Shown in pieces: positions 1 to 64,000 of a stretch of 64,000 bases of DNA. Location of the stretch: contig JAYGXS010000005.1 of NCBI GenBank assembly GCA_036362985.1, positions 53,761,732-53,825,731 of the forward strand, read 5' to 3'. Each line of letters opens with the position of its first letter. The first letter of the stretch is position 1. The notes under the pieces were generated by a model, which searched no databases, was not told the DNA's origin, and saw only the letters and a list, made by a program, of their open reading frames with translations. The stretch is from Ligula intestinalis. Lineage: Eukaryota > Platyhelminthes > Cestoda > Diphyllobothriidea > Diphyllobothriidae. Position numbers and translations under genes: made by a program.

Positions 1-1085
1 TGTGAGGTGAAACCAGTTAGTATTCAATGTTCGTCGCAATATTTGATTTATATCTCACGGGTCAGACAATGAAGCAATTTAACTAGAATGTTGGCCAACA
101 TTTGGTAATATATAATAAAGCACTTCACTAAGCTGATATCTGAAATATGCTTCGAAGCGACTAAAAACCGAATCGATGCTGCGTTACCTTTGAGACAAAA
201 ATCAATAATCTTTAATCAGTTAACATATCATGAAAAGCCCAGTGTTTGACTGAGCTTGCTTTTACAGGACATCAGGCTAAGGCTGGATAATTGTGGTTTT
301 TAAGCCAGAAATGGCCATCCCGTTCTCAGTTATCGTTGTCAGTAGTGTCTTAGTTGCAAAAACTACTGACAGTTCGACCGCCGTTTCCGTCGATGTACAC
401 AACGAGCTTCAGCAGGCTGAGGCCAACGCGGTGACACCCGCGGGAAGTGGACTCGCAGAGAATCTACCCTCCCCCCCACTCTCTGACCACACCCGCGCCC
501 GATGTCAAGACAAATGTCGAGAAGACTGGAGATGGGGAGGGTGCAGGCTGCTGGCGAGTCCAACACTCCACTTCGCGTCACAGCACCACCGCTTGCTAGG
601 GGCCTCGCATATGCGGGAGTGCCATACAGGCCACATTAAGAAGAAACCATTGAAGCCTGACTCTCAGCTCGCCATTCAGCCATTCCACACTGAACTGAAT
701 TGAACCCGCGTGGTTTAAATTTTTGAGCAAGACGAAGGCAAAGTTATTTCAACTTCGACGTCGCAAGAAATTGTCTTCAGAGTAAAACTGAATAAAAAAA
801 CACAGTGTTATACGATCCTCCGTCCAATTTCCTTGAATACCCTCGCTGTTCGACCAGGAATTTTTCTCCAAATCGAGCATCTTGCTGGGATTATTGGCTT
901 GGTTTCCACACGCTGCCTGTCCAAATCAAATTCTTCAGGGTCACTGAGGAATATCTGCGGAGAGGCTGAGCCTAAAATTTATATACTGCTGTGTATTAAT
1001 TGATATACTGCTTGTGTATAATTGTTGCAGACTCACAGATCCCCATGTAACAAATCGCTAGCGATCGCTACGGACGTTCACCAGA
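1..1085. other. No gene seen; SINE/hammerhead remnant near 290
   Basis: Nothing convincing as coding. At 290-335 there is a short stretch (aagccagaaatggccat) matching the 3' half of the hammerhead region of the SINE copies at 58407 and 63952, so a truncated SINE tail is likely. The ORFs here are low-complexity and unrelated to known families. Confidence 0.4.
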
Positions 1086-1091
1086 ATGTCC

Positions 1092-1405
1092 AATAATTCA
1101 CTACGCCGCCGTTCTGTGTCCCCACGCAAACGTACGCACCGAACGCGTGCGCGCTTGCTCAGAGTTTTTCAAACCCCCCTCCCCCTTTGCGCAGCCCTCG
1201 TATGGCGTCAGAGTCCGCGCACCCGTTATCAGCAGAAAGTAACGATCCTTTCTCATGAGACGCGCTGCTTGGGCTACGACGAATACCTGGTCACGCCTCT
1301 TAGTCAACTTAATCGGTACCCGGCCGCGCGAACGCCACCCTCCCCCTACCACTTACTTCACTCACCCCTCCCCCTTATTTCGCGCTCGCTGGCGCGCGCA
1401 CTCAG
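1092..1405 (+). repeat. Dispersed direct repeat, copy 1
   Basis: This ~310 bp, GC-rich segment is repeated in the same orientation at 2453-2765 with few differences (for example caacttaatcggtaccc against caactcaaccggtaccc). Both copies start near aattcactacgccgccg and end at gcgctggcgcgcgcactcag-type sequence. The internal sequence has C-runs and CpG-rich words, unlike its AT-rich neighbours. Class unknown. Confidence 0.8.
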
Positions 1406-8544: not shown

Positions 8545-8880
8545 TGCCAAGTTCGGAGCTTGCAGGAGGTTCTTTTGGGCGCTCAAAACCAGCTTCGTAG
8601 ACTGAATCGCTATTTCTTCTGCTGTTGCTAGCAAACGCTGACCCAGGGAATTTATTAGCTTGGTGAGGATTTATGAATTACTTTAACGGTTTTCTGGGGC
8701 CCACACGATGTCTGGAATGAACTGTGTCGGCACGGATGATGCTGTTCATGCTTCTGAATTCACGTTTTCTTAGCCATCCCGGGAAGTGCTCCCGCATTCT
8801 CGTGCTACCGATATATCCTGCTCCACAGTAGTAAGAAAATGAGTAAATACAGATAAAAGTGGTCTGAGCTTGCAGGCCAT
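8545..8880 (-). pseudogene. PLE GIY-YIG endonuclease remnant, lineage B
   Basis: Read on the minus strand across several frames: FICIYSFSYYCGAGYIGSTR, MREHFPGWLRK and MNSII, then degraded sequence with SAFASNS where intact copies have LATA. Compare ICIYSFTCSCGAGYIGRT in the better copies at 32535 and 55980. Frameshifts and a stop after GPRKPLK make it dead. A G-rich tract (8465-8515) follows at its 3' side. Confidence 0.7.
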
Positions 8881-9214
8881 CCTTATTGATTTATTTATTC
8901 CATGGGATATATACCCACTGAAATGCACCGCAAGTTTTCCTGTAGAAGATGCTGAGTGACTACTTATTTTTGTGTCCAAAACTATTCCTCGAAACCATGT
9001 TTTATTGACGAATCTTCGCGCGATTCGTTTTCTTCCTAATTAAGCTTAAGAAACACATTGGCAAATTTTAGGTGTGTATGCGTTTTCCTGACGGGTTTCC
9101 TGCGGCAGAAGGAAACATTTAATTTACCTTCACTTACATTTTGGTTTTATTCTGGGACAGTTAAGCTATCACGGAATGGTCATCTCAATACTCAACTTAA
9201 ATCGAAAGATAAAA

Positions 9215-14063: not shown

Positions 14064-14540
14064 TCATGGTAACTGCGGCGCCGTTACGAAGTTCTTTTGG
14101 GCGCACAGGACCGGTCGGCGTAGCCTGACGACGGCCGCTTGTGTCGTAGGCAACAGACGCTGTCCAAGGAATTTTGAATAGCTTGAGGGCACCTTGTAGA
14201 TTACTCGAAAGGCCACTATGGCTTCAGCGCGATGGTCAGAGTCTACCAGGTGCGCCAAAATGGAAATGTTTACACTTTTTATTTGGCCCTTCCCTTACCA
14301 TGCTAAAATGTGTTCCCGTACTCTTTTGAACCAAGGCCGGCTCGGGCGACCAATATATCCTGTCCCACAGGAGCAGGTGAATGAGGAGATGCACATACAG
14401 GTTGTCTGGGCTAGTAGCTTTTCCTTGATCTGCTCGTTTAGAATGGAAGTAGTCGGCGCCGCAATGAGCAGTGCCGAAAGTCGCTTGTATAACAGGCCGC
14501 AGCTTAACACCTTTGTCGGCTATCAGTTTCCCTGACGCTG
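14064..14540 (-). pseudogene. PLE GIY-YIG endonuclease remnant, lineage B
   Basis: Minus-strand translation gives CMCISSFTCSCGTGYIGRPS, VREHILAW, then after a frame change AHLVDSDHRAEAIVAFRVIY, KVPSSYSKFLGQRLL and a CAQKNFVTAP tail. The order matches the intact-looking copies at 55980 and 48620. The GIY-YIG fold residues YI and the Arg/Glu of REH are visible. Frameshift near 14290 and no RT upstream; a pseudogene. Confidence 0.85.
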
Positions 14541-16860: not shown

Positions 16861-17457
16861 TTAAAAACGTAAAATGTAGTAAAGTCAGCTGACTTGACTA
16901 CAAAAACAATATAATGCAGAAACCCTAGGAAACGCCATGGCAAGCTAACACTCAAGCCGTTGCTTCCTGTAGCGGCAGGAAATCGGTGAGACTGACGCTC
17001 AGGCTTTACTTAACTTCGAGGTTGTTTTTTTTATTAGTAAGAAATGGAAGCGCTTTGCGGGGACATGTTGAAGGGATGCATGTGAACGATCACCGTTGGC
17101 CATTCTAAAAGAATGCAGACATAGCTTGAGATGCATCGCCCTCCATTATTAAATTGAAGAAGGTAAAGCAGAATTAACTGATGCCTTTTATCCCAGTCGT
17201 TAACGATAATTAATTAGCTGTGAGACAATGTTGTGGGTGTTTATGGAAATGACGCGAAAGAGTCAGCATCGCACTCGACAACGTCCACCGTGACCGTAGC
17301 ATCGGTGACCTTTGCATTACTTTGCTTATTGGCAGATGAACCGTGTCGGCAATGAAAAGTGGACAGGATTTTTCTTAGTAGTGGCGGAACAAAACTCCAC
17401 ATTTCCAGGTTTGTTGACAGCCATTCGAGCTCGATCCGAGCTCGATTTGAGCATGAT

Positions 17458-17645
17458 TAGGCTTAGGGTAACGGTTAGGGGTTAGAATTAAGGTTATGGT
17501 TAGGGTCAAAGGTTAGAGTTAGGGTAAAGGTTAGGTGTTAGGGTAAGGGTAAGGTTTAGGGTTAGGGTAAAGGTGAGTGTTAGCGGCTAAGGTTAGGGTT
17601 AGGATAAGGTTTGGGGTTAGGGTAAGGATTGGTGTAAGGTTCAGT
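17458..17645 (+). repeat. Degenerate interstitial TTAGGG (telomere-like) block
   Basis: Many ttaggg and variants (ttaggtgttagggtaagggt, ggttagggttaggataagg) run for about 190 bp in one orientation. TTAGGG is the animal telomere repeat. The degeneracy and flanking unique DNA on both sides show that this is internal, not a chromosome end. Confidence 0.85.
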
Positions 17646-18055
17646 GTGGGATGGTGATTTCTTATGTAAAAAGCTCGAAGTTTCTGTTTAAAATTACAAA
17701 AAGTCTAAAAAAATCAATTATTACTGGGTTTTTGGGCGAAGGAAAGTTTTCGGAATAAAACTCCACCTTTCCAAGTTTGGCGAAAGCGATTTGTGCTCAG
17801 TTCGAGGTTAATTCGAGCTTGATTTGTTTTTTTCCGCCTTTTTTCGATTAACGCGCCCAACGCCAACGGCCCATAGCCACCGTATTAAATTATTGTAACA
17901 AAATTGTACGACTTTTTTTTCTTATTTTCTCAAAATAATTTTTGGTGAATCTGTTTTACCAACACAAAAAACCCTTCTCACGGTTACCGTATGAAAACAA
18001 CCTACGGCTTGTTGCATCCAAGTTCACTACCAAGGAAACTCCTGCCGAAAAGTGA

Positions 18056-18100
18056 GACTGGAAAGGCCATTTCTGGTTCACTAGCCATCATCAGCCAGTC
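18056..18100 (-). ncRNA. Hammerhead ribozyme motif, SINE type
   Basis: Minus strand: GACUGG, CUGAUGA, stem II region UGGCUAGUGAACCA, GAAA, UGGCCUUU, CCAGUC. Helix I (GACUGG/CCAGUC) is six perfect pairs and the core is canonical; stem II is weakened. The same layout occurs at 58407-58451 and 63952-63996. The tRNA-like head is not recognisable here. Confidence 0.75.
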
Positions 18101-18808
18101 ACATCCAACCCCAGGTAATGCAATCGTAGTTTCCCTTGTCTTTGTCAGGGATGCTGTCCGCCTATACTAGTCGAGGCTACAGCTGCTATCAGGGCCCGAA
18201 AATTGAGGTCCATGGCAAAGGCGCAGTGGGACAAGTGCGTTTCGTTAGCGGTCGGCAAACTTTCGTCAACGAGGGTCGATGCAAAAAATGTTATCCATAG
18301 AATCACGTATCCCGAGCTATACTCACACGTTTTCATCGATCAACATCTTGTGACTGTGCATGCCGGTCTTTAAAGGTAATTGAAAAGAAGACGACTCGAT
18401 CGCTGGGACAATATGTTTATTCGCCTGACGTTTCGATATCCATCGCGGATTCGTCATTCGCGCCATAATCAGAGAGCAAAAGCAGATAGGGAAGTACATG
18501 CAGAGGAGTTTTCAGTAGTTATAGGATACAGTCATTACTGCAAACATGCAACTACGATTAACGATAATTGCCTTCTCCTGTGTCGATAGTTTTTGGAACA
18601 GCATGTGAGCTCTGACCTGCTGGACTCTAATCACGGACGGTGGACTCGGGCGTGATGATTGCTCGGCCATCTGGTCCTGCGGTGTTGGCATAGGATGATG
18701 TGGTGGCGTCTCTGTTCCTCTAGCTGCGAGTTGCTTTGGCCAAATTGAGTCTCGGCACCGGATATGGATTATGCAAATCGTTGCACTTGTTTACGAATCG
18801 GGGTTTCG

Positions 18809-25450: not shown

Positions 25451-26679
25451 CAAGTCTACTTATCATCAGAATTCTAGGCTCTGAGCTTCTTGAAAAGTTG
25501 GGCTGCATGTACTGGGTCGGAAGAGATGTGAACGGAAGTTAATTTAAAACCAGAGACCCTATTCCAAAGAAGGGAACAGCCTGGTTACGGCTGTTTCGGT
25601 TTTTGAGGTTTGTTTTGCACAAAGCTAGCGCGCGCGCTTTCCTCTGGTTTCCTGTCTATCGTCAGCGGGACTGAACGCTGGAGTTTAATGGTTCTGCATT
25701 TAAATTTACGAGAGAAAGGACATTAAAATGTTTATCGTGTCCTTAATCACAGGATTAATGGCCGCGGCGAAAGGGTAGTGTTTTAATGAATAGGAGCAAA
25801 ACAGGGATTTTTGATTAGGACCGCGCTTACAAACGCCTTACTTTCATTGCGTTCGTGCCAATAAGGCCTGCCATACGTAAAATGTATTTGCTAGTTTTGG
25901 ATCAGTAAAATCTTTTTGCATGACCCAGTGAATAGATGAAACGGGAAAGTCTGGCAAGCTGAAATCTAGTGATTCTAGGCTGGCTTGCGTACCGTTCTCT
26001 GGCTTTTGATTTGAGGACGAGCCTATTTAGCCTTTGAGGAAACAAAGAACGTATGAAATTTCGCAGAAATGTACTAAATGTGGTGGGGCACGATTAATGC
26101 TTCGATTTGTACGACTGACTTGGTCGATGGGTAGAGTGTAGGCCCGGAATCCGTTTGAATTTTTAACTTGATAACGAGAAGCGAAAGAGGTCTGAACGCA
26201 TGATTGGTATACCACCTAGTTACCCTTGGTATAATCTTAAAAAACGCTTAAGCTTATGCTTGATTCCAAATATTTAAGGCGACTCCGCGCAGAATAGGCT
26301 AAGTTTGGAGTAGTTGAGACCGTCGCACGCACAAGTGAAAAAACCACAATCCTTGAAATGCAAGGTCACAATGCCAAGGTCATAAAGTTGGCTGTGATTA
26401 GCCCGCTGATGTACAACTTCTGGACTCGCTGGGCATATCCCGGAGCTGTAGCACGTCTTCCAAACTATACTTACGATTAAATTAACGGTTGCCGATCGCT
26501 GACGAAAGTCATCTGCCCTGGATAAAGGCCCTGACAACAGCCGTAGCAGCTGGCAGTATAGTGCATATAGGGCCTCTGTTGAGGCCCAAGGCAGACCGAG
26601 AAAAATAAGTTCCGCTAGTAGTCAGGTGAACGTTCATCAATGAGTGTCAGTTTGCCCGACCTAACCCGAAAAGACAACG

Positions 26680-26830
26680 AGCTTGTGGCTCAATTGTAAG
26701 GGTGTTAGATTCTGACCAAAAGGTCGCGAGTTCGAGGCTCGGGTGCGGCACTACCTGGGTTTGGGTATGACTGTCTGACGACGGATTAGAAGCCAGAACT
26801 AGCCATTCAAGTCTCTCTTGTCTTTGCCGC
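26680..26830 (+). mobile_element. tRNA-headed SINE with hammerhead ribozyme, copy 1
   Basis: The 5' part is tRNA-like: box A tggctcaattgtaag (26686-26700) and box B ggtcgcgagttcgaggc (26722-26738). About 30 bp later comes a hammerhead at 26769-26813: GACU, CUGACGA, stem II CGGAUUAGAAGCCA, GAAC, UAGCCAUU, AGUC. The catalytic GAAA is GAAC here, so this copy is probably inactive. Transcription would be by RNA polymerase III. Confidence 0.8.
26769..26813 (+). ncRNA. Hammerhead ribozyme motif in SINE (core mutated)
   Basis: Helix I GACU/AGUC pairs perfectly; CUGACGA fits CUGANGA; stem II GG/CC with a partly paired interior; GAAA is GAAC. Confidence 0.65.
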
Positions 26831-28095
26831 AGTACTATCTGCCTGAACTACATGCGGTTATGTCGGACACTGTAATTTGCATGAAAGGGGTCGGACCACT
26901 GATGTGTTTGTAAAGGCCTTAACCGGTTCGGATCCATTGTTAGTGAGAGTTAAGAATTGAAAGCATAAATTATAACACATGCTTTTGAACCAGGTTCAAC
27001 TGTCCTGGACATTAAAATGCGTTTTCTTATGATCAGCAGATTGAAAGCAAACTCGATGTTTGGTCATCGAGCATCTCTCCTGAACTTACGTATTACTTTA
27101 GACAAAAACATCCTCTTTGTGTGAATGCTGATTAATTTCGCTTGAGTCTGTTCACGAGAGACAGGGATATTTGGTTATGTACGAACGAATATTAGCGTAA
27201 TTTTGAGTCTTTATGCATTGGGTATTTCGATTTCACTGCCTCTGATTGTTATCATGCTCCTGTGGATCTTGAAGTATCCTTAATTTCAATACTTGCTGGA
27301 AATTTACCGAAGGTCCCCAAAATTGTTTTAATGATCGATTGTTTGGTAGCAAATAAACACGCCATAAATAAAATTAGAGATAGTTAATTTTATTTGCTGC
27401 TTACTGTTGGTTTTATTCCAGTTTATTATTAAGTTTTATTAGTTTTAGACCTATTTTTAGTTTGGTTAGTTCAGTTTATTTTAGTTTACGTTTGTATATT
27501 TAGTTTACTGACGTTTTTTCAGTTTTAAATGTGTTAGTGACACGTGGTTGCTTTTTGCGTTAAAATATTTAGTAGTTTACTTTACACCAGTTTAGTTGGC
27601 GTGGTTTTCTTAAATCGTTTATAGTTTCGTTTGTTTTATGTTCAGTATTATAGTTTGTTATAATTTCGATAAGATTTTAGTTTCGTTAGTTTAAATAACG
27701 TTAGTTTACCGTTCTTTTGTTAGTTGACCTTAGTTCTAATTAGTTAGTTCATAGTTTTGGTAGTTTTGCTTATTTTTTTTAAAATTTATGTAGTTTGAGT
27801 TTGGTGTGAGTTAAGTTTGCTGTTTAGTTTGAGACGTACTACTGATATGTGGGCTTTATTTAATTTTTGACTCCACGTTACTTTAATCTGGGAAATTCAT
27901 AGTTCCTTGCGTCGTTCTGATAATTTTATAAGTTCCCGATATGAGCGTAGTTGCACATGTATTTATGACCCGCTATTTTGTTGTCAAACATTAGACTATT
28001 TAAAGAATTCTTATAAATTTTTCTACTTCTTTACGCTCCACATTTTCTTCCTCTGTAATGCCCACACTGTAAAATATTTTTAGGTATTACCGACA
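26830..28095. other. No gene; AT-rich AGTTTA tract at 27360-27860
   Basis: 26830-27350 shows nothing recognisable. 27360-27860 is a long run of tttagttta-type words like those at 19386 and 24075, here without an adjoining PLE end. Confidence 0.5.
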
Positions 28096-28105
28096 AAGGC
28101 ACGGA

Positions 28106-28150
28106 CGCTAGGATGGCTTTTTCTGGCTAATTAGCCGTTGTGAGCTAGCG
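28106..28150 (-). ncRNA. Hammerhead ribozyme motif in SINE (helix I and II perfect)
   Basis: Minus: CGCUAG, CUCACAA, C, GGCUAAUUAGCC, A, GAAA, AAGCCAUC, CUAGCG. Helix I is six perfect pairs with a sequence different from the GACUGG/CCAGUC of other copies, and stem II is a perfect GGCUAA/UUAGCC hairpin. CUGAUGA has decayed to CUCACAA, so it should be inactive. Confidence 0.7.
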
Positions 28151-28262
28151 ATACCCAAATCCAGTGTAGCCGATAGAATTACAGCCACATTCGAATTTCG
28201 AACCCGAGTCTCTCCGGTCAGAGGCAAACGCCCTAACCATTGAGCTACCGGGCCCGATATCT
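28106..28262 (-). mobile_element. tRNA-headed SINE with hammerhead ribozyme, copy 2
   Basis: Minus strand: head ggcccggtagctcaatggtt (box A) at about 28235-28255, box B gggttcgaaattcgaa near 28188-28204, then the hammerhead at 28106-28150. The head resembles a full tRNA 5' half, including an anticodon-arm-like segment, but lacks a clear acceptor stem, so it is not a tRNA gene. Confidence 0.8.
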
Positions 28263-29231
28263 TGTGGGTTTTTGACCGGGAGTACAATTACCTAAGGCTA
28301 CATAAGATTGATGAACACCGTTCGCGTATTATACAAGGATGGGGTTTAAGTGTGTTGTTTTAGGAAATGTTAGGGCATTAATAACTGTTGTTGCTGTACA
28401 CTGTTTTTACTTTTTGAGGTTTTTTCATTAAATCAAACTGTCAGGTTGGCTGTTCAGCCTATTGTTAACGGTAAGACTCAACGTAAAAGCGTTTTTTGCC
28501 TTTTAATGAAACGGAATTTTGCACGGACTGAAGCTAATGAGACTAAAAGAACGGCCAGCCCCTGTTTGAGATTCTTTCCCCAAACCGCCTCACAGAGGAC
28601 TTTTCAGCGGTCTCTATGTCCTCTTTTGTAAAATTGACAGCAAATGAAATGCGTTGGCCTGCCTATGAGAATCTTTACTTTTAAACTTAAGATTACGCCG
28701 CACAATTAAGGTCTTAAGCAACTGAGAAATTGGGGTGAGGGTGCAATAATATTTTTTCTACGGTTGTTTCTGATATAGCGGTGGTAAGACGCTGAGATAG
28801 ATAGCCCAGTAGTACAGACGGTTTTGATCAGAATTTGAGGAAGGGTGAAAACGATCTAGTTACATTTCTTAATTTGATCTAAGAGAAAATGCTGTCGTAA
28901 ATACTAACCCCAGTCTAAATATCTGCGTTAAGATTAGCGCAAAGCTCCTGGATAATAAGGTTTCATATTCTTATGTTTTTCGTAGCGGCTTTCAAGTGCT
29001 ACCATCCGGCCACCGAATTATACACGTTTTTGGCCTCTCTGGTGTCTTATGTCCCCTGTCAATTAAAATTTCATTCAAAGAGGAAGCATTTTCACCAGTG
29101 AATTCCTCATTCGTGATGTGAGATTCCAGAACCCGTCGCAGATCAGAATGAACGTTGGGTACGCCTCAGCCTATCTCTAAAGTTCATAACCCAACACGGA
29201 GTATGGGAACGGCAGGTCGTTGCGCTTGGTG

Positions 29232-32534: not shown

Positions 32535-33440
32535 CTAAGTGACTGTGGGCCATGCCATCAGCCTAATAGCGGTCTCTTTTGTTGTTGCTAGCAGGCGCTG
32601 ACTCAGGGGCTTCGAATAATTTGGTGGGACCCTGTAGATCACTCGGAGAGCTTCGTTGGGGTCCACCCGATGTCCGGAATCGACCATGTGCGCCAGAATG
32701 CAGCTGTTTATGGTCCTGACTTCACCTTTTCTCAGCCATGCCTGGAGGTGTTCCTTTATTCTATTGGATAGGCGCCGGCTCGTGCGACCAATATAACCTG
32801 CTCCACAGGAACAAGTGAAAGAGTAGATGCCCATTGAGGTCGTCTGAGCTGATAACCTATCCTTACCTTCCCATGTGAGATTGGGTTGTTTGAGTATAAT
32901 ACCTGAACTCTGGCTGCTGGGAAGGTTCTTGCAACGGCTTGGTCAAGGCGTCTTTTCAGCAGTTCACTTGCTGCGTCCCCTCGAAAGGGGACTTTGAGGA
33001 GTAGTGTTTTTTTCTACAGTAGGTACGTTGGATTTTATTTGATTCTCAGTCATATTTCTTGTCATAAATTGCTCAGGATACTCGTTCTCACGCAGTAGGT
33101 CATCGATTTTATTGAGCTCCTCCTCCTTACTGTCTGCTAAGAAAATATTTCTAGCCCTCTGCACGAAGCATCAAACTAGATTCCGCTTCTGTTGAAAGAG
33201 TAGGAAACTGCTAGAATTCGTGTACTGACCAGACCAGGTTTTCTTTCGATACACGCTCCTTCGGACGCTACCGTCAAGTCTGCGACTTAGGAGGACATCA
33301 AAGAAGGGAAGCGAACTTGCCTTTTCCACCTCTAGCGTGAATTAAATGGATGGATGTGCTTGGTTGACCGCATCTAAGAGTGCGTCTACGTCAGTTTTGG
33401 TTGCGGCGATCGCGAAGACGTCATCTGTATAGCTGGCTGT
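32535..33440 (-). pseudogene. PLE lineage B: RT end plus GIY-YIG endonuclease, broken
   Basis: Minus strand, high to low coordinates: 33300-33440 reads SYTDDVFAIAATKTDVDALL (RT motif C with YxDD), a stop, then LPFFDVLLSR and SVYRKKTWSGQYTN (motif D/E region typical of PLE). 32964-33164 is the linker (NEYPEQFMTRNM). 32535-32860 reads TWEGKDRLSAQTTSMGIYSF, TCSCGAGYIGRTSRRLSNRI, KEHLQAWLRKGEV, AHMVDSGHRVDPNEALRVIY and RLLATTKETAIRL. The YTDD dyad and GIY-YIG residues are present, but several stops interrupt the frame and the 5' RT half is missing. It lies in the intron after the HD exon. Confidence 0.9.
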
Positions 33441-39619: not shown

Positions 39620-40740
39620 CGATAAATTCTCTGCTCGTCTTGTTTACCGCGTGGGCCAGTACCTTGAGGGCAGTGAAGTTGAACTCATGGCCTGTTTCAT
39701 AGGTGTGAGTTGTAACTTGTGATGATTCGTCGCATAGTCACACGGCCTGCTTGTGTTCACGTATACGAGATCCGAGCATGCGTTCCGTTTGACCTGTATA
39801 ATTACAGGGACTATTTAGGCATGGGATGCGATATACTACACCAGATTGTTCATTCTGCGTAATCCGGACTTTTATTTTTATCACTCTGCTGTGCATTGTA
39901 GCTTTGGGTCTGTGTGCAATTCCAACACCTAGTCCCGCAGCGATGCGCTCAGTCGCTTCTGAGACGTCTTTTTGATATGGCAGAGCGTGCCATATCTTCG
40001 GTGGTTCTTATGTTTGGGTCCTCCGGGGCCGAACGCGTAGGCATCGGGTTATAAATGCTTTTGGATAACCGTTCCGCATGAACTGGTCACGGAGATATCT
40101 GTCCTCGCGTGCCTTTTCCTCTGGTTTACTGCAGTGGGTCTGGATCCGTTTGAAGAGTGTTTTTACACAGCTCCGTTTGTGAGCAACTGGATGGTTACTG
40201 TGAAAACTTAGGAGTTGTGTTGTCTTCGTCGCCTTCCTGTAAACCGTCGTCTCGAATTCACCATTGGGTGTTCTCTTGACGAGGACATCAAGGAAAGACA
40301 GCTGCTGCTCTTTTTCTTTTTCCTGTGTAAATTGTAGGTCAGGAAATATTCCATTGAGCAAGTCATGGAAGTTTTGCAGCATATTTCTCTTGATGATGAC
40401 AAACGTGTCGTCGACGTAGTGGCGCCAGAAGACAGGCTCATGTTGGGCGAAGGCGATGTTTTCTAGTTCCTGTAGAACCAGTTCTGCCACTAAGCCAGAG
40501 ATCGGGGAGCCCATTGGAGTTCCTTTGATCTGTTCGTATGTTTTTCCGGCAAAGGTAAAGTAAGTTTTCTGGCAGAATTCGAATAACCTCATAAGATGTT
40601 CAATTTTTAGTGGGCTTTGGGCCTCATCATATGCCAGTTTTGGCGGTATGGATGTGAACAATGAAGTCACATCGAAAGAGACCATGATTTCGTCTGTAAA
40701 TATTTCCACCAACTTGTCGATCTTGCCTACTGGCACAGGC
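39620..40740 (-). pseudogene. Penelope-like RT and GIY-YIG endonuclease, lineage C
   Basis: 40008-40736 is one open frame of 242 codons: EIMVSFDVTSLFTSIP (RT motif A with its Asp), IKGTPMGSPISGLVAELVLQ (motif B), FWRHYVDDTFVIIKRN (motif C, YVDD), QLSFLDVLVKR and ETTVYRKATKT. After a stop near 40008 the reading resumes: KIWHALPYQKDVSEATERI, AAGLGVGIAHRPKATM, SGVVYRIPCLNSPCNYTGQT, ERMLGSRIREHKQAV and, after another stop, HTYETGHEFNF and REFIEAWSTDENSVNRYVEL. RT and GIY-YIG active-site residues are visible. Stops and the missing RT N-terminus make it inactive. Confidence 0.93.
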
Positions 40741-47010: not shown

Positions 47011-47303
47011 TTCACGTGAGACAAAACTCGTATTGTCGTTGTCTGCTCTTCTAAGAAAGGCTGCGAATTTTTGGAAACAATTCACTCAAGCGCGTCGTGC
47101 ATCAACAGACACATCGAGTTGGAGTCGTCAAGCCGAAGTCTCAAGCAGAAGTGAGCGAGACGCGAGCCAATCCGAACGGAATGAAAAACATGGCAGCAGG
47201 GTACTGGCGCAAGCGCCATGCCACGGCATTATCGACTTTCCGATGAACTCTCCATGTTATCTATTTTGGGCACATTCACTTTTGTATTACCGGCAAACGT
47301 TAG

Positions 47304-47354
47304 AACTGTAAGATACGCGTATTTATAGCTTATTAGCTGTCGTCAGCTGCAGTT
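47304..47354 (-). ncRNA. Hammerhead ribozyme motif in SINE with 10-nt palindromic helix III
   Basis: Minus: AACUG, CAG, CUGACGA, C, AGCUAAUAAGCU, A, UAAA, then UACGCGUAUC, UUA, CAGUU. Helix I AACUG/CAGUU is perfect; stem II AGCU/AGCU pairs; helix III AUACGCGUAU is a perfect palindrome. GAAA has become UAAA, so activity is doubtful. Confidence 0.68.
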
Positions 47355-47460
47355 ACCCGACTCCAGTTTAGCCACAGAATGTGCCGCAACACTCGAGTTT
47401 CGAACCCGCGACCACTGAGCTAGAGATGAATGTCCTATCCACTGAGCTATCGGGTCGATG
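47304..47460 (-). mobile_element. tRNA-headed SINE with hammerhead ribozyme, copy 3
   Basis: Minus: cgacccgatagctcagtgga (box A) at about 47438-47458, a duplicated tagctcagtgg word, box B gcgggttcgaaactcgag (about 47393-47410), then the hammerhead at 47304-47354. Confidence 0.8.
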
Positions 47461-48539
47461 TCTTGCCGGTTGTCGATCGGGATATAGATTAGTACATAGG
47501 TTGGTGTATCCTGGAACAGATCGGAGTACACCTATGTACTAACATTCACTTTTCGCTGCGTCTGAAGACGAACTGGGTCTCCGGTCTCAAAACTTCGTGC
47601 AATAAAGTTCTTTTACCCAAAGAACACCTTCCCCTTCAACTTATATTTGTCGGAGTGTCTACTTTTCAAGATATACATTTTAGTTCACATTATACTGGGG
47701 CCTTACTCTACTCTAAACCTGACTTTTTGCGATGCCTGTGCATGCACGCTATCTCGATTGGCTCGGGTCCGAATGGCAAGAAACTTTGCCTGATTAACCA
47801 TTTCTGCGTTTAGCCTATTCTGAGGCACGGCAAGGGCATTATCTGAACACATAACGCAATCTTTTAATTATGCTCGTTTCGAGGATACTGAGGTCGTGGT
47901 TGATAACGGTCCTCTAAAAAATATTTTTGTGCATCGTGGACAGGGTAATCTACGTGTGCATAACCCTTTCTATGTTTTTTTACCAAGATGCATTGGCCTT
48001 GAAGGGGCAGTTCATTTCGCGATAGGGTGTTCTGAAGGCATCTTCTGCGTCTATATGATGTCTGCTGCAGCCACGGATGCGGCTTGAGGCGCAATTCCCG
48101 TCAAAGTTCTTTTAACACCATATGGTCTTCCAATGCACACATATATTTTTTATTTCGGCCTTAGTTGTACGATGGGCGGTTATTTGAAAGTTCTCCAAAT
48201 GCTGTTTGTCCTGTATCTATTTGGCGTAGCCTGGAATAGGGTTGACGGTCAATACAAATCGCGTACTCCATGTGATGAAATACTGGATTCATTCAAACGC
48301 CACATCTGGCCTCGTTAAGGCATTTGTTTCCCCACCGCTTAGGTGACGACACACCTAGCAGGCTGATTAATCAATGCCTGAGCAGATAAGTTGCTGGCCA
48401 GTAAAACGGTTATCCAGAACGGTTCATCCTTCAGAACATCAAGGAACTTGCCCCAAAGGTCGCAATTGCAACGGCGGAAAAAAAAGATCTGTTTATAAGA
48501 CTGCCGTTTATTGGAGACGCAACGAGTGAACTAGGTAGA

Positions 48540-55980: not shown

Positions 55981-56654
55981 TAGTTCATGTCATGCAGTAG
56001 TCCTCGTCTCGGGTTTTGTTGGGTGTGAGGACGCAAGCTGTCAACGTCTTGAGACGGTGTCGGGGGCCTTTGGATGCTTGATGCCGCTGTCTCATCATTG
56101 TTTCGCGGCGTAGTAAGAGGCGTGAGGGCAGATTTTGAAAAGGCTTTTGGCCACGGGAGCCTTAGGGCCGCTACAAATGCTTTCTGCACACATAAAATTG
56201 GGTTTGTGAGGCGAATGGCGACTGCTTCTGCCGTCGCAAGTATCTGCTGACGCAGGAACTTAGAGTGTTTAGCCGGAACTTTGTAGACGACTCTAAATGC
56301 TTGGTTGACGTCTACCCGATGACCGCTGTCTACCAAGTGAGCCAGAATTGCGCTTGATATTGACTTAGTTTCGCCTCTGTTTAGCCACGCAGGGTGATGC
56401 TCTCTCATGCGCTTTGATAGACGTCTAATCGTTCGACCAATGTAACTTGCCCCACAGGAGCATGTAAAGTTGTAGATACACATTGATGTGGTCTGGAACG
56501 GCAGTCTATCCTTACCTTCAAGGCGAAGAAGTGGAGTGCTTGAGAACAATAATAAATGTCCTCCTTTAAAATGGAATAAAATTGGGCGCGCAAACTCACA
56601 ACACCGGAAAATCAAAAGTAATCCATATCCGCTAATGACTGAAATTTCCGACAT
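55980..56654 (-). pseudogene. PLE GIY-YIG endonuclease, lineage B, open reading frame
   Basis: A 224-codon minus frame: LLRLEGKDRLPFQTTSMCIY, NFTCSCGASYIGRTIRRLSK, RMREHHPAWLNRGETKSISS, AILAHLVDSGHRVDVNQAFR, VVYKVPAKHSKFLRQQILAT, AEAVAIRLTNPILCVQKAFV, then a Thr/Pro-rich tail. Conserved YIGRT, R and E positions of GIY-YIG are present. The N-terminal 45 residues do not match PLE, so the RT and linker are lost and the copy is 5'-truncated. It is the least damaged endonuclease in the window. It lies in the intron before the exon at 57586. Confidence 0.92.
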
Positions 56655-58090: not shown

Positions 58091-58329
58091 ATATCAACTC
58101 AAAATTATTAATATTATGGAGTTAATATAGGGAGGATCTAGGTATGGCGTTTTATGAAACTTATTTCGCAAAGAAAGGGGGACCGGGATATCCATTACTT
58201 GCTTTTTAGCCGTCATCTTATTGTGAGCTCCGTGGGGAAGCGGAACTAGTTGTTCCTATACCAGATTGGTGATACCCATGCACTCATCAGATCTCAGATC
58301 TCAGCCGACAAGTCAGCAAGCCTGTGGTG

Positions 58330-58455
58330 CATAGCAGGCTGATAAACGCTATGACCAAAGGTCCCAGATTCGAATCTCGGAGGTTCAAACCCTTGAAATA
58401 GGGTTTGACTGGCTGATGACAGCTAGCAAATCAGAAATGGTCATTCCGGTCTCCC
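58330..58455 (+). mobile_element. tRNA-headed SINE with hammerhead ribozyme, copy 4
   Basis: Box B-like ggtcccagattcgaatctc at 58360-58378 with a weak box A upstream, then the hammerhead at 58407-58451. The same order and words occur at 63890-64000 (gaccaaaggtccc, cagaaatgg, ccggtctccc). Confidence 0.82.
58407..58451 (+). ncRNA. Hammerhead ribozyme motif in SINE
   Basis: GACUGG, CUGAUGA, stem II region CAGCUAGCAAAUCA (weak), GAAA, UGGUCAUU, CCGGUC. Helix I is six pairs (one G-U), extended by GGG upstream and CCC downstream. All core bases match; helix III is near-palindromic AUGGUCAU. Confidence 0.78.
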
Positions 58456-59087
58456 CTTGCTTTGTGGGATATATTTTATCATCCTTTCCTCATTTTCACT
58501 TTGCGACTGTCTGCGTGGTCTCTTATTGCGAGCTCCAGGGCGAAGTGGAACTTAATGTTTCCTCTACTAGATCGGTGATGCCTATATATTCACGACGTTT
58601 TATGTTAAAAAATGATATAGAGTTTATATAGATTCGACGATTGTATCCATTTGGACACTACTGACTCATTTTAATTATCGCCACAAATATTCGGTTATTT
58701 AAGTAAACCATATTGAACTTTAAATTAAACTTTCACCAAAATTGTTCTATGGCTTGACGTTACACAACCGTGCCTTTTTATTAAAGGAAAATATTACGTG
58801 CAGAGGGTTTACAGTACTTAGAACATGCAAGTGCTGTGGCATCGCATACCTATCGAAGATAGTCGTTCTCGCATTCGCTGCAGAGGGCTGAACTTGCAAT
58901 TTCACCCCCCCCGCGTTAAGGAGTAATATGAAAATAAATCTTTCCTTTAGCTAACTTGCTCACCTGAACTTCCCCTTATGGAGCTTTTAGCTCGAACGTT
59001 GAAAGAAGACGATTGGCGCTTCTGGGAAAGTATTTATAAAAGCAACTGGCTAGGCTAAAGTAGTTTATGTAGTCCCCTCATATACCC

Positions 59088-59557
59088 CTAGTCCCAGCAT
59101 CTTGTCTTACGAAAATGGTGGTTGTAGGGTTTCTTGCGGGGAGGGGGTAAGTAAATAGGATAGGCAGAGAAGGAGATTTTTAGAAGCAAGTTTAAAGTGA
59201 AAAAATGTAGTTGAATTTGCTTCCCGCGGCCGCTGGAATTAAGTTGTACCGCATGTAAATTAAAGATGTAGGCACCGCGGGCTATACTTATCTAACTGCA
59301 GAACGGTAAGTTAGAGTCGATGACCTAAGAACCACCATTTCAATTTTTCGGGAAATTCAAATACCTGCAGGTTTTTCCGCAATAAGTTCAGTGATAATAC
59401 AGATCAGGAAAATCTGCAGATATAAATCAACAAAACTTCTAAATACCATAAAATAAAAATGCATATAGCCGTTTTTAAGGTATACTTTACTACGCATCCT
59501 AATTACTCACCCACAAAACCTTATAAGCACCATTTTCATAGGACAAAATGTTGGGAG
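59088..59557. mobile_element. Foldback element F, copy 4
   Basis: Left cctagtcccagcatcttgtc, gaaaatggtggttgtagggt; right ataagcaccattttcatagg, acaaaatgttggga. Interior words gaacggtaagttagag and gtttttccgcaataagttca match copy 1. It ends 115 bp before the exon at 59673. Confidence 0.82.
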
Positions 59558-59568
59558 TATGGATTATT

Positions 59569-59581
59569 GGGGGGGGGGGGG
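59569..59581 (+). repeat. Poly-G run (13)
   Basis: Thirteen G followed by tgggggc, just after foldback copy 4 and 91 bp before the last visible exon. Confidence 0.95.
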
Positions 59582-59672
59582 TGGGGGCTAAATAAGCTAC
59601 TGTTGACACTGGCTGTTTCCTTTATCTTTGTGTAATCTAATTTGCCTGTTTCTTTTTCTGCTTCCCATATAG

Positions 59673-59756
59673 GCAATGATGGATCGCGACTTCAGTCACC
59701 AATTTCCGCAGATGCAAATCGAGTTTATTGACACGATTTGCGCTCCTGTCTATCAC
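59673..59756 (+). CDS. PDE exon: purine-selectivity Gln region
   Basis: The acceptor tag ends at 59672 and the donor gtaggt starts at 59757. The 28 codons read AMMDRDFSHQFPQMQIEFID and then TICAPVYH. The second Gln of PQMQIEFID aligns with the invariant Gln of PDEs that grips the purine ring; the Phe two residues after it aligns with the hydrophobic clamp. PDE5/11 proteins continue for at least 30 more catalytic residues (helix with a P-L-L-D motif), so at least one more exon must follow. I did not find it in 59757-64000. Confidence 0.92.
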
Positions 59757-60039
59757 GTAGGTTGTGTTACATCTTCGTGTTCATTTATCCACTATTCCTT
59801 TTCTTAAAACTCGAGGAAAGGTGTGCCCTCTCCCCCACCCTGTTCGGTTGTTCTTTCATTTTGGTAGCAGAACTGTTACACATACGAATACTATTACTAT
59901 TCGCCGGAACCATTATCTCCAAAATGCCTGGCCCGTCTTACAATTTGACAGCCTTTCTTCAACTGATTTCGTATTTTGAGTCGACCCAATTGTAAAAAAC
60001 TCGAGGCGTTTGGGCGGGATAAAACTGTGTAGTAGAGAA

Positions 60040-60090
60040 GGCCTTTACCGGAAGCCAACGCTCCAACCCCTGAGCTACAAACGCCCTACT
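60040..60090 (-). mobile_element. tRNA-like head, possible SINE fragment
   Basis: Minus: agggcgtttgtagctcaggg gttggagcg looks like the 5' half of a tRNA with box A. No box B or hammerhead follows, so it is a truncated SINE head rather than a tRNA gene. Confidence 0.4.
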
Positions 60091-60264
60091 TCGCAATGGG
60101 GTCACCTCAAATAAATCAAACCTGCCAACCCTTCTAAAGACTTCATTTTCTCTAACAGTCGATAGTCAAATACACAGAAATGTTACGCTTTATCGTCCAG
60201 CAATTCAAGTCGGTTATGCTAAATAGAACTCAGTTGGCTAGCAGTAAGGTCACCAAGCGGCACG

Positions 60265-60425
60265 CTAAAACCCCATCTTTCTATAATACGGGACAGGTCG
60301 TAATGAAGGTTAAAAATAGAGCGTATAAAAGTAGAAAACAATAGGAATAATCATCTAAATAATCGAATATTTGTGCGTGATAATGAATATGCCCCAATAA
60401 TGCCAAATAGACACAATCGTCGACA
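60265..60425 (+). repeat. Diverged R16-type repeat
   Basis: aaccccatctttctataata, gtaatgaaggttaaaaatag and gacacaatcgtcgac resemble 16610-16660 and 57955-58090. Confidence 0.55.
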
Positions 60426-60474
60426 CTTTGTCATTGGCAGACAGGCATCCCAAGAAATTTAATTTCAGGGAGAC

Positions 60475-61370
60475 ATGTCCTTTTGGATAAAAAGGAAACT
60501 TTATTCAGCAAATGCACAACACTGGATCCGCAGGTCGTCGTCAGACTTGAGAAGAATGTGCAAAGAGCGATTAACATTTAAAAGTGCTGATACGGTTAAT
60601 AGTCATGTAGTGTGGGCGCTAATTGGTAGCTGCAATTTGCGTCACATCGTGGTGGACATAATTAGCAGTCGCAATGGTGTAATGGCTAGTTGGCATCTGT
60701 AAGTTGGGTCTGTCCGGGGTCAGTTCGGGTCATTCGGTGTGGGCGCTTATTGAGGTTCACGCTAGACCGTATTGATCACTCCATCCAACTCGATACGTCG
60801 GTTGGTGTATGAATAATCGGAGTACATGGCCTCAAGATATTCTCGGCCTTTTTTGGAGGGGAAAATCTCAACGATGCGTATCTTCTCCCATGAAAAGATG
60901 TGTCAGGTGTCAAGGCAATTCATAGCCACTTCGGACAAATAGTTATGTCTCTTTTACTGTCGGATGGTGCTTGTGGGTGCGTGTGGAGACAGACCTTCCT
61001 ATGTGGCCACAGTATATTGTATCACAACCTCTGCATGGGATTTTGCAGATTACCCTTTCTTATCGAGGAAGCTAACCCTATCCTTAGGGTTTACTAGCCG
61101 GGTGCATAAAGTAGCCATCAGTTTGTGCGCCACTTCCATTTGGTGCTCTCGCAAGTTCCGTTCAACGAGTTCAGACACATTCCCTAAATAAGGAAGGATT
61201 TGCTATGCATTTGTTTTGGGCGCTTGAGTGAAACTACATGGTACCTTTTTGTTGGATTGTTGCTGTCTCATGCGTCCGCGTACAGTTTCGCGAGCCTGAT
61301 GACGACCTGGGGATCCAGTGTCGAAAATTTACTGAATAAAGTTTCCGCATTTTCCGAGAAGAGCTTTTCT
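60475..61370 (-). mobile_element. PLE fragment (lineage H) between inverted repeats
   Basis: ggaaactttattcagcaaat, cactggatccgcaggtcgtc (60494-60545) is complemented by gacgacctggggatccagtg, ttactgaataaagtttccgc (61301-61350). Inside on the minus strand: CKIPCRGCDTIYCGHIGRSV and STRTHKHHPTV (about 60950-61060), then GREYLEAMYSDYS and NRRIELDGVI (60770-60850). Frames are broken between the two parts. Confidence 0.8.
61292..61335 (+). ncRNA. Hammerhead ribozyme motif in PLE lineage H repeat
   Basis: CUGAUGA (61296-61302), stem II GACCUGG-GGAU-CCAGUGUC (seven pairs with a bulged U), GAAA (61323-61326), AUUU. Helix III would be the palindrome AAUU. Helix I is not convincing. The opposite arm keeps CTGACGA but has lost GAAA. 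Confidence 0.65.
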
Positions 61371-61379
61371 CCTTGAAAC

Positions 61380-63500
61380 TCGATAGCATTTTTAAATAAT
61401 CTTTATATACTTTCTGTAGAGTTGATATAGAGATGATATAGGAAACATGTACAGGTGATAAAGAGTTTATGTAGAGTCGACGATATAGGAACACCATTTG
61501 ATACTATTGGGCCTTTTTCGATTTCGCGCGCAAATATTCGGGCATTTAAATAAGCTGCTTTGTGACATAAATTGAACTGTTATCCTTTGTTGCACTACTG
61601 ATACAGCTGCTGCCGTTTTGCAGCTACTTCTACTAATACTATTATGGCCAATTCAACTAGCAACCCTGCCAACAACCAACACTTCTCATTATAATGGTAA
61701 TGATACATTTGTCAACGGGGGTAGCAGTACGTCGACGGTGTAAACGACTGCAGAACACACTAAAACCGCATTTAACTGCCCCAGAATCCAAAAATTCTGA
61801 GGCGTAAGTTCATTTAAAAATAATTCCATCGTATTTTTTGAATTCTCGAGCTGTTGACACCAATCAGTCTACAGACGAAATGGAACAAAAGTTGATTGAA
61901 ATTTTATTGTTGCGACAAAAGTGTCACCCACATAGTCTAGCCAATTTTTTCGTTTCAAATTCTGAGCCACTTATTCTGTTCACTACTCGTTTAGCGAGTA
62001 GTCCTGATACTGGCGAGCTCCTGGGGTTTTCTTTACTTCTTAGTAGTACTCGTTGTAGAATTAGCCGTCGTTCTCAAGGCATCTTTTCAGAAGTTCTATA
62101 ATGTACTGTGTTGGTGTCTCAGTGAGTTCAACCAGCAAAAGTTGGACTGCGAATTTGAATTAATGCGGTATTTAAGAATCAGTTTCATTCGTTAGCAGAG
62201 CACAGCAGGGCAGAGGTTTGATTGTCTCTTGTAGATAGTCTTTTTTCCTAAATCTGCCATCCTTGCCGGCGGCTTTTATCGAGAACGTCAGATATATAGC
62301 ACTCGAAATGCGCAATTCATGTTCGTCCGAAAGTAACTTCCCAGTCATATTATATAACGTCAACTTAGAACGAAAGAGTTTGTCGAAAGGCTATAATCGC
62401 GACAACGGCGGATAAGCTTCTGTTAGTCGAAAATCGTCCCCTGTCTCTGCCTCTGATGACGACGACTGTTGGCGTAGTTTTGCGCCATTCGCTAGTCCTT
62501 GTTGGTCATCGGGTGGACACAGTCAACAGAAATATTGACTTAGCTACAGCCTGCCAAGCCCTCTGTACAAGACTCCAGTCCGTCCAGGCGAGGCTGGCAG
62601 CTCTAGTGACTGACTTACGACTACGCCAACAGTGGTCGTCATCTCGGCAGGGGGGAAGAGCTAGCCTCTACCCTCCGACGAGCCAAACCAATCGTGCGTG
62701 ATCCCTACGGGGAGCGACAGCTGAGGGAGGTCCCATAGCAGCCGCCGAAGTTACCTTCGGCCTACTGGCTACTACAACAGTCGTGCAGGCGACAGGAGTC
62801 ACACGAGGTCATTGGCAGTCCGCCACGGAGGAGCCAATCCGCAGACAGCAGGATCGTCAAAGTCTGTGTGTTAAGCACGTCGATAATACTCGGCAGGCGG
62901 CGTGTTATAACCATTATCGATAAGCAGGAACGCACACCTTACCAATCTGATGATGGAAACGAGGAAGGTTTCGAAGGGTCAGCACAAATACAGTGTGGTC
63001 CATTGAAGCGCCTTTTGTTATTCATCATCTTCTTTAGGGGATTGTGGATGGGATAATTAATCTGGACCTCGTATTTTCACCCATGTTTATATATATATAG
63101 AGCAAAGACCGTATAAGTAACTCAGCTGGCCTTTCTTAGCCCCAGGCGTTGCGACGCCATAGACTCGGTAATTTGGTCAAATGTTTTTGCTAATACTTTT
63201 TACTAGCCGCTAATGGCGGATCTGTAGACTAACGCACCAATGCACAGTGGGATGACTGAGTCTCCTGTTCGATTGATAAACGATCATCCGTGATTTATAT
63301 GCTATAACTCTGCGTAAATATGAAATAGAATGTGCAATATCCGGACGAAGTATAGATATATATATTCACTCAGAAATGTGCAAACACCGATCATATAGGC
63401 TGCCGAACTAAACAAAGTTCATGTGGTGGTCAGAGGTCCCCAGCGGGTGACCGCCTGCCAGGCCGATTCCGGCCAAGTCATAATAGCAGTAAGAAGGGTA
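61380..63500. other. No gene recognised
   Basis: The final exon of the phosphodiesterase would be expected here or beyond; no frame with a P-L-L-D helix and flanking splice sites was seen. ORFs at 61838-62101 and 62456-62701 have no recognisable domain. 63080-63100 and 63350-63365 hold short AT dinucleotide runs. Confidence 0.45.
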
Positions 63501-63511
63501 TGACAGCGTCT

Positions 63512-63572
63512 GGGGGTAACTTGATACAGAGCTGTTTCGGACTTATCAGCCTTCATCAGCCAAGCAAACCCC
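63512..63572 (-). ncRNA. Complete type I hammerhead ribozyme motif
   Basis: Minus: GGGG, UUUG, CUUGG, CUGAUGA, A, GGCU-GAUA-AGUCC, GAAA, CAG-CU-CUGUA, UCAAG, UUA, CCCCC. Helix I CUUGG/UCAAG with an outer GGGG/CCCC; stem II GGCU/AGUCC with a bulged U and a GAUA loop; helix III ACAG/CUGU with a two-base loop; cleavage expected after GUA. All core positions match. It differs from the SINE and PLE versions and belongs to a separate, unidentified repeat. Confidence 0.85.
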
Positions 63573-63889
63573 GGAACCCCAGCTGGTCAGACAACACAAA
63601 AAAACGCATTTACAGACGGCGTAGGTGGTGCACCACTGGGGTTTACCAGATAGCTCATAAACACTTCATCGAACCACAGTTCATCAGCGCCTCGCCAGTT
63701 GCAATTTGCTGACACTGCAGATCAGGTATGTATTCACTCAGTCATAAATTTATTGCTGTAAGACTTTCGGGGCCACAGCTTGGGCTGAGTTTAATTAAGA
63801 GGGAGTCATTTGTAAAAATCGTTGGATTTCATGAGATAGTGCACTTCTGTAGGATGGTATGATGAAATTATGCACTGTGCACTATATTG

Positions 63890-64000
63890 AACTCAATGAC
63901 CAAAGGTCCCGAGTTCAAATCTCGGGGGTGCCAACCCTCGAGATCGGGTATGACTTGCTGATGACGGCTTATAAGCCAGAAATGGCCATTCCGGTCTCCC
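63890..64000 (+). mobile_element. tRNA-headed SINE with hammerhead ribozyme, copy 5 (reaches window end)
   Basis: Box B ggtcccgagttcaaatctc at 63906-63924, then gatcgggtatgacttg and the hammerhead at 63952-63996. The copy continues past 64000. Confidence 0.82.
63952..63996 (+). ncRNA. Hammerhead ribozyme motif in SINE, canonical core
   Basis: GACUUG, CUGAUGA, C, GGCUUAUAAGCC, A, GAAA, UGGCCAUU, CCGGUC. Stem II GGCU/AGCC is perfect; helix III AUGGCCAU is a perfect palindrome; helix I has one mismatch (U-C) relative to GACUGG in other copies. Confidence 0.82.

Follow-up and report, generated by a model that had tools for sequence, protein, structure and literature searches.

The 64,000-nucleotide window analysed here (contig C5, positions 53761732-53825731), which comes from an apparent, probably digenean-like flatworm, carries dispersed copies of one repeat family whose members are composed of a tRNA-like head, a linker, a 55-nucleotide type I hammerhead domain and a retrotransposon-type tail. 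The genome searched for further copies amounts to 644 Mb in 2,377 contigs. An earlier note on this DNA had named six stretches as copies of a short interspersed nuclear element (SINE) ending in a hammerhead ribozyme (HHR). These six stretches do form one repeat family, and BLAST and profile searches extend all of them. In the window, 63890-64000 matches 58345-58455 at 81% identity across 111 bp, matches at E < 0.001 fall at 26713-26815, 18054-18101 and 28113-28156, and the match at 47321-47360 is weak (E 0.07).

Copy 5, a member of the young subfamily Y, lies on the plus strand at 63890..64000, corresponding to unit positions 31-141, with a B box at about 63911-63921. It had been described as reaching position 64000. 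The match does run to there, but this end is an assembly gap, since a run of N adjoins, and the match starts already inside the head, at unit position 31. Its hammerhead domain (63946..64000, plus strand) reads GGG UAU GACUUG CUGAUGA C GGCU UAUA AGCC A GAA AUGGCCAU U CCGGUC U CCC; the core had been called canonical, but one helix I pair is broken and there is a C-A mismatch at 10.1-11.1. Copy 4 cannot be called nearly canonical, because its helix II has lost two of the four pairs. Its hammerhead domain (58401..58455, plus strand), with helix I paired and helix II half broken, is part of a head-to-head composite insertion of old Y type at 58157..58595, of which copy 4 is one half. This insertion consists of a minus-strand fragment overlooked by the earlier note (58169-58217) and a plus-strand succession of B module, tRNA-like head, hammerhead, tail and B module (58221-58578). 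It lies between 9-bp repeats, the left and right target-site duplications CGTTTTATG at 58148..58156 and 58596..58604.

The window holds further copies. A subfamily P copy with boxes A and B in its head is found on the minus strand at 47290..47530, coordinates that delimit the stretch used as a query and not the element itself; its hammerhead (47302-47358, minus strand) contains the 10-nucleotide palindrome AUACGCGUAU. A subfamily O copy with a tRNA-like head (28074..28284, minus strand) has a hammerhead at 28102-28156 of the same strand with the helix I CGCUAG/CUAGCG. BLAST and profile searches both detected an old copy with a head at 26655..26824 (plus strand; hammerhead at 26763-26817, helix I partly decayed) and a headless old copy at 18049..18108 (minus strand). 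The hammerhead of the latter (18052-18106, minus strand) has the helix I GACUGG/CCAGUC and a U-A pair at 10.1-11.1. Lastly, the 3' half of a hammerhead domain, also overlooked before, is present on the plus strand at 275..340 (match 275-327).

Genome searches, each with one window copy as query, 40 candidates scored and 43 matches including the query itself, resolved three subfamilies: Y (young, with a 311-bp unit), O and P. The Y query (copy 5) yielded 3,102 first-look candidates and matches of 91-96% identity, the O query (28095-28262) 1,139 candidates and 80-86% identity, and the P query (47305-47460) 1,167 candidates and 85-90% identity. The O and Y loci are the best matches to one query each, which biases them towards well-kept copies. 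In a grid sample of 200 kb, taken as 20 stretches of C1 and C2, 11 hammerhead-domain matches were found within five stretches; scaled up, this would correspond to roughly 35,000 matches per genome, with a wide error. The family is real, large and old.

The consensus of 21 O rows comprises the tRNA-like head GCGGGCTCGTAGCTCAATGGTTAGGACGTTTGCCTCTGACCGGAGAGACGCGGGTTCGAAACTCGAGTGTGGC, a linker, the 55-nucleotide hammerhead domain and a stretch ending in approximately GGTAATACC. P copies have a similar head and tail and a different hammerhead sequence. In the 311-bp Y unit, the head occupies positions ~1-75, the hammerhead core CTGATGA lies at 99, the cut is predicted to fall between 131 and 132, tail A is near 168, and a second module ends in tail B near 283. 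The predicted cuts read AUU|CCGG in Y, AUY|CUAG in O and AUC|CUGC in P. The hammerhead is not the 3' end of the element, contrary to the earlier proposal: a tail comes after it and, in Y, so does a further module that has a tail of its own. In Y, CCGACAAAGCA before the head is complementary to TGCTTTGTCGG after the hammerhead, as read by eye, and the two are paired in the predicted fold. A related SINE at locus L046 (729-871, minus strand, and 1020-1109, plus strand, head to head) has the same tRNA head and linker, another 3' part and no hammerhead.

The tRNA-like nature of the head is supported by boxes A and B at a spacing of 32 nucleotides. Scored against the box consensus, they match at 17 of 19 letters in O and P, a value reached by 0 of 3,000 shuffles, and at 15 of 19 letters for the Y head, which 11 of 3,000 shuffles attain. 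Dedicated tRNA models speak against such a head: ARAGORN with default settings found no tRNA gene in the window or in the heads, and the Rfam tRNA model gave just 13.9 bits for copy 5 (cut-off 29) and nothing at E 3 for loci L051-L070. The calls that ARAGORN made on the heads at a lowered threshold were dropped as evidence, because 84-131 of 400 shuffled heads were called as well; these calls, unreliable here, assigned no amino acid to O and P, and His to Y.

To analyse the hammerhead domain, we collected 98 profile hits, of which three of other length were dropped, leaving 80 distinct 55-nucleotide rows. All nine fixed letters of the core, CUGANGA plus GAA, are present in 46 of the 80, and at least seven in 75. 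The five rows with fewer than seven were dropped; the 75 kept still include some decayed rows and, out of register, a distinct element, Z, described below. Two alignments were drawn up. That of Y and O has 37 copies, namely all 34 kept distinct rows outside loci L001-L030 and only three from these loci, a choice that limits near-identical young copies. The P alignment has 12 copies, eight of the 43 listed P places having been fetched.

Compensatory changes have kept the hammerhead-shaped domain in the three subfamilies. Helix I forms 341 Watson-Crick pairs in the 75 rows, against a mean of 262 and a maximum of 292 in 5,000 trials of random strand re-pairing, and its exchanges include CACUAG/CUAGUG, CGCUAG/CUAGCG, CUCUAG/CUAGAG, GACUGG/CCAGUC and CUGUGA/UCACAG, as well as ACUGCAG/CUGCAGU and ACUGCGA/UCGCAGU. 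The three subfamilies differ in their helix I sequences. In the 37 Y/O copies, 82.3% of cells are paired (76.2 in shuffles), 45 cells have both sides altered with pairing kept (19.0 in shuffles), and the covariation score is 0.265 (0.163 in shuffles); none of 500 shuffles reaches either of the last two values. Structures slid along the same alignment are 28-52% paired, with covariation scores of 0.06-0.13. Such double-change cells number 29 in helix I alone (13.3 in shuffles, 0 of 500) and nine in helix III alone (3.1 in shuffles, 1 of 500). In the 12 P copies there are 15, located in helices I and II (5.4 in shuffles, 0 of 500). Among 21 O copies, identity is 94.7% in the nine core columns, 94.0% in helix II, 89.5% in the linker, 86.8% in the tRNA head, 83.3% in helix I, 81.0% in helix III and 66.8% in the 20 bases 3' of the domain. 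Helix I of the domain includes the internal loop UAU/U, and a loop AAUA is present as well.

Several results weigh against this reading of the fold. Helix II of Y/O is mostly paired, yet its four inner pairs have no double changes in the 37 copies. When pairs with double changes are counted instead of cells, 11 of 500 shuffles attain the value for the whole Y/O structure, 169 of 500 that for helix III by itself and 263 of 500 that for helix I by itself; for the further pair types in P, 495 of 500 shuffles do so. In one of its slid positions, helix III is still 61.5% paired. In general, related sequences can beat the shuffles used by such a pair-count tool, to which the slid controls are a partial answer. 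For single-strand Y, the optimum is another fold, at -16.3 kcal/mol compared with -10.8 kcal/mol for the hammerhead, and RNAalifold's own prediction recovers most of helix I without the three-way junction. Finally, Rfam gave no hammerhead match in any SINE copy scanned. The earlier note had stated that a lack of significant covariance-model hits would refute its proposal; for Rfam such hits are indeed lacking in these copies, and the fold is supported instead by the explicit pair counts. As Rfam missed the family in the scanned copies, similar elements may be overlooked elsewhere.

With compensatory pair changes, boxes A and B at tRNA-like spacing and the target duplications detailed below, the idea of a retrotransposed family that starts with a tRNA-like head and has a domain shaped like a type I hammerhead is supported. 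We consider it very probable that the copies represent a non-autonomous tRNA-headed retrotransposon family, i.e. a SINE, with a type I hammerhead domain, like Sm-alpha of schistosomes.

The following positions bear on whether the domain would act as a ribozyme. The canonical hammerhead motif has a G-C pair at 10.1-11.1. Here this pair is C-A in 57 of the 75 rows; it is non-standard in 30 of the 37 Y/O copies and 7 of the 12 P copies, and standard in the remaining 7 and 5, respectively. G8, a catalytic position, is the weakest position of the core, kept in 28 and altered in nine of the 37 Y/O copies. Both features count against an active ribozyme, as does the other fold preferred by single strands. 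The cleavage nucleotide, position 17, which in type I hammerheads is any base but G, is T in 55 rows, C in 19 and G in one, the latter being element Z out of register; it is U in the young subfamily Y and C in 11 of the 12 P copies. Given C-A at 10.1-11.1 and U at the cleavage position, the Y ribozyme may be weak.

The same observations would suit a tRNA-derived SINE whose hammerhead is a dead relic, conserved solely because the reverse transcriptase of a long interspersed nuclear element (LINE) recognises its structure, such that the helices matter and cleavage does not. The youngest subfamily, with its C-A at 10.1-11.1 and its U17, is in line with this, and so are the changes at G8 and the six of 27 Y insertions in which a segment spans two uncut hammerhead cleavage sites. 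However, C3, U4, A6 and A14 never vary in the 37-copy Y/O alignment (A2), and G5, A9, G12 and A13 each vary in one to three copies only. By comparison N7, a position left free by the catalytic consensus, is C in 23 copies and T in 14. In addition, P has mostly C17, and in 5 of its 12 copies the pair at 10.1-11.1 is a standard one. A relic of this kind is thus conceivable, if doubtful. Subfamilies of differing age occur side by side in this HHR-bearing SINE of an apparent flatworm, and one can therefore read what selection keeps, namely the helices and most of the core, and not 10.1-11.1.

We examined the mobility of subfamily Y using 27 insertions from 30 loci, leaving out L001, which has a gap, and L010 and L019, which repeat L009 and L018. 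They represent 35 segments. Tail A (157-179) is the end point of 21 of these and tail B (280-298) that of all the other 14; 11 begin at the tRNA head (299-13). More than half of the insertions (14 of 27) exceed 311 bp. A single segment reaches at most 586 bp (1.9 units), and an insertion, made of two segments, at most 795 bp. There is no TTTT in the Y unit. No Y segment starts at the cut site; this is uninformative, because the loci were chosen by a match spanning the cut. Target duplications of 9-13 bp flank 12 of the 27 insertions (at least 9 bp; control 0.1%), one of which, L026, is in a simple repeat. Within the short stretches examined, copies of O and P appear to be single.

Eight of the 27 Y insertions are head-to-head pairs with tails at both outer ends (L004, L005, L016, L017, L018, L026, L028 and L029). 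Five of the eight, again including L026 in its simple repeat, have flanking repeats of at least 9 bp, and therefore most of these pairs look like single events. They seem unlike ordinary 5' inversions, as if both strands were primed at tails. The composite insertion of the window at 58157-58595 is a head-to-head pair of the same kind, within a target duplication.

The fixed tails, the head starts, the long insertions and the lack of TTTT fit tandem transcripts that start at the head and are copied from either tail. In the SINE model, a polymerase III-type transcript would start at the head and could run through tandem units, since the unit has no TTTT stop. Two hammerheads would pair via helix III into a double hammerhead, which could cut and perhaps re-join transcripts, and a LINE-type reverse transcriptase would begin copying at either tail. 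As the Y ribozyme may be weak, uncut multimers would possibly be copied into the genome.

Multimers might also arise if the element were a retrozyme without long terminal repeats (non-LTR), with a unit copied from circular RNA generated by double self-cleavage and ligation, and reverse transcription running round the circle. Metazoan retrozymes are described as tandem 150-450-bp repeats, and retrozyme-like repeats are mentioned for platyhelminths (PMC7229834). The 311-bp unit, the single segments of up to 586 bp, the two-segment insertions of up to 795 bp and the long target duplications agree with this, as do the complementarity of CCGACAAAGCA and TGCTTTGTCGG on either side and the predicted folding of the unit at -116.6 kcal/mol, a value obtained without a shuffled control. 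Nevertheless, the 3' ends fixed at two tails and the 11 of 35 head starts fit linear read-through transcripts equally well, and the apparently single O and P copies argue against retrozymes, so that we regard this explanation as rather unlikely. As for a repetitive element with an accidental CTGATGA and GAAA, the absence of Rfam matches and the 12 occurrences of the CTGATGA...GAAA pattern in the window, mostly outside this SINE family, would allow it, but double-change cells above all 500 shuffles in two separate copy sets, together with the failing slid controls, make it highly improbable.

Returning to the SINE and its putative ribozyme, helix III is a perfect palindrome in 39 of the 75 rows, with four different sequences: AUGGCCAU (32 rows), AUAGCUAU (three), AAGGCCUU (two) and AUACGCGUAU (two). 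The palindromes are often 8-10 nucleotides long, and a fully paired helix III leaves no space for a loop. The inner helix III pairs, which are impossible in a hairpin, co-vary: columns 39-42 are GC in 25 cases, AU in four, GU in one and other combinations in seven. An example of the helix I/III variant pattern is AGCCAGAAAT[A/G]GC[C/T]AT. A self-complementary helix III with differing palindromes suggests a dimeric hammerhead, a motif apparently able to work in pairs. The two-strand minimum-energy folds of Y and of P are double hammerheads.

One can go further and propose that this SINE is a dimeric hammerhead by design, with helix III selected for self-complementarity, so that cutting requires two copies to come together, whether within a multimer or from two RNAs; the Y ribozyme would be weakened, and Y would spread as uncut multimers with two alternative tails for the start of reverse transcription, often as head-to-head double insertions. 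Ribozyme activity would then depend on copy number or multimer length. In this full form we consider the proposal unlikely. Palindromes are limited to the 39 of 75 rows, and the O dimer fold is not a double hammerhead. Dimer energies as low are obtained in 25, 20 and 19 of 300 shuffles (6-8%), and the gain of the dimer over the monomers is not unusual, being matched by 54, 215 and 92 of 300 shuffles; all of these points weaken the dimer idea. The recurrent palindrome makes it testable.

We compared the family with known systems. The Sm-alpha element of Schistosoma is described as combining a head that resembles tRNA-Gln (in S. mansoni) with a type I hammerhead that is active, and the Sm-alpha-like W-element is 335 bp long (PMC2770079, PMC8490949). 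Schistosome repeats are reported to contain a full tRNA, and 15-bp duplications are mentioned for Nematostella (PMC4918200). The present family shares with Sm-alpha and Sj-alpha the tRNA head, the type I hammerhead, a similar unit size and very many copies (PMC2770079, PMC8490949, PMC4918200). It may be set apart from Sm-alpha by an often palindromic helix III of 8-10 nucleotides, a mostly C-A 10.1-11.1 pair, two alternative 3' tails in the 311-bp unit and three helix I types. The earlier note had presented the family as an apparent equivalent of Sm-alpha in another flatworm lineage, an origin that is likely here. It would indeed appear to work like Sm-alpha, but the likeness is one of kind and not established common descent.

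Metazoan non-LTR retrozymes similarly have type I HHRs, short units as dimers or multimers, long target duplications and self-paired RNA (PMC7229834, PMC7761336); the present family differs from them in its tRNA-like head and its SINE-like dispersal as copies whose tails are fixed. A self-complementary stem III and a possible double hammerhead are reported for the newt satellite and Aedes repeats (PMC3088659), whereas here the palindromes differ between copies, and between subfamilies, of a single tRNA-headed element. Penelope-like elements likewise provide minimal type I HHRs in animal retroelements (PMC7761336); in contrast with them, neither a coding sequence nor a pseudo-LTR was seen in the 311-bp unit, although no search was aimed at them. 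A literature search by title and abstract in a partial collection found no description of this SINE family. The new points are the palindromic, co-varying helix III and the two-tailed, multimeric young subfamily.

A second hammerhead-like element, Z, distinct from the SINE family and overlooked by the earlier note, lies on the minus strand at 63502..63576. It matches the Rfam model HH9 at 17.6 bits, below the cut-off of 52, and is the only hammerhead-family match across the five Rfam scans made. Paired by eye, it reads CUUGG CUGAUGA A GGCU GAUA AGUC C GAA ACA GCUC UGU A UCAAG with an outer stem GGGG/CCCC, and has a hairpin helix III, a GUA site and A-C at 10.1-11.1. A genome search for Z brought up 1,861 first-look candidates; the 40 that were scored gave 46 matches, mostly at 92-93% identity and including some head-to-head pairs. 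An older Z copy (L031:4267-4334) has A-U at 10.1-11.1. By eye, the B module of Y resembles the 3' part of Z, which hints at a shared partner.

In a genome-wide search with RF00163, 73 of 92,101 candidates were scored; of the 31 matches listed, 22 pass the cut-off, and none of 14 control genomes has a match. The best Rfam hammerhead match elsewhere in the genome (L079; C3:28449639-28449681) is a type I hammerhead of 41.3 bits; by eye it has G-C at 10.1-11.1 and the helix III palindrome AAGCUU.

The window harbours other features. Repeats at 8799-8885, 14341-14427, 32779-32865, 56428-56514 and 40008-40739 (minus strand) have a translation that, by eye, looks like a decayed Penelope-like GIY-YIG endonuclease and reverse transcriptase. 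The segment 20189-20782 matches phosphodiesterase-type proteins, unnamed ones at up to 65%, the best named one being from Schistosoma japonicum (45%). Together with ~59674-59757, identified by eye, it represents exons of a cyclic-nucleotide phosphodiesterase-type gene, and several of the repeats may therefore sit in introns of this gene. Lastly, a degenerate TTAGGG array at 17457-17627 constitutes an interstitial telomere-like repeat.

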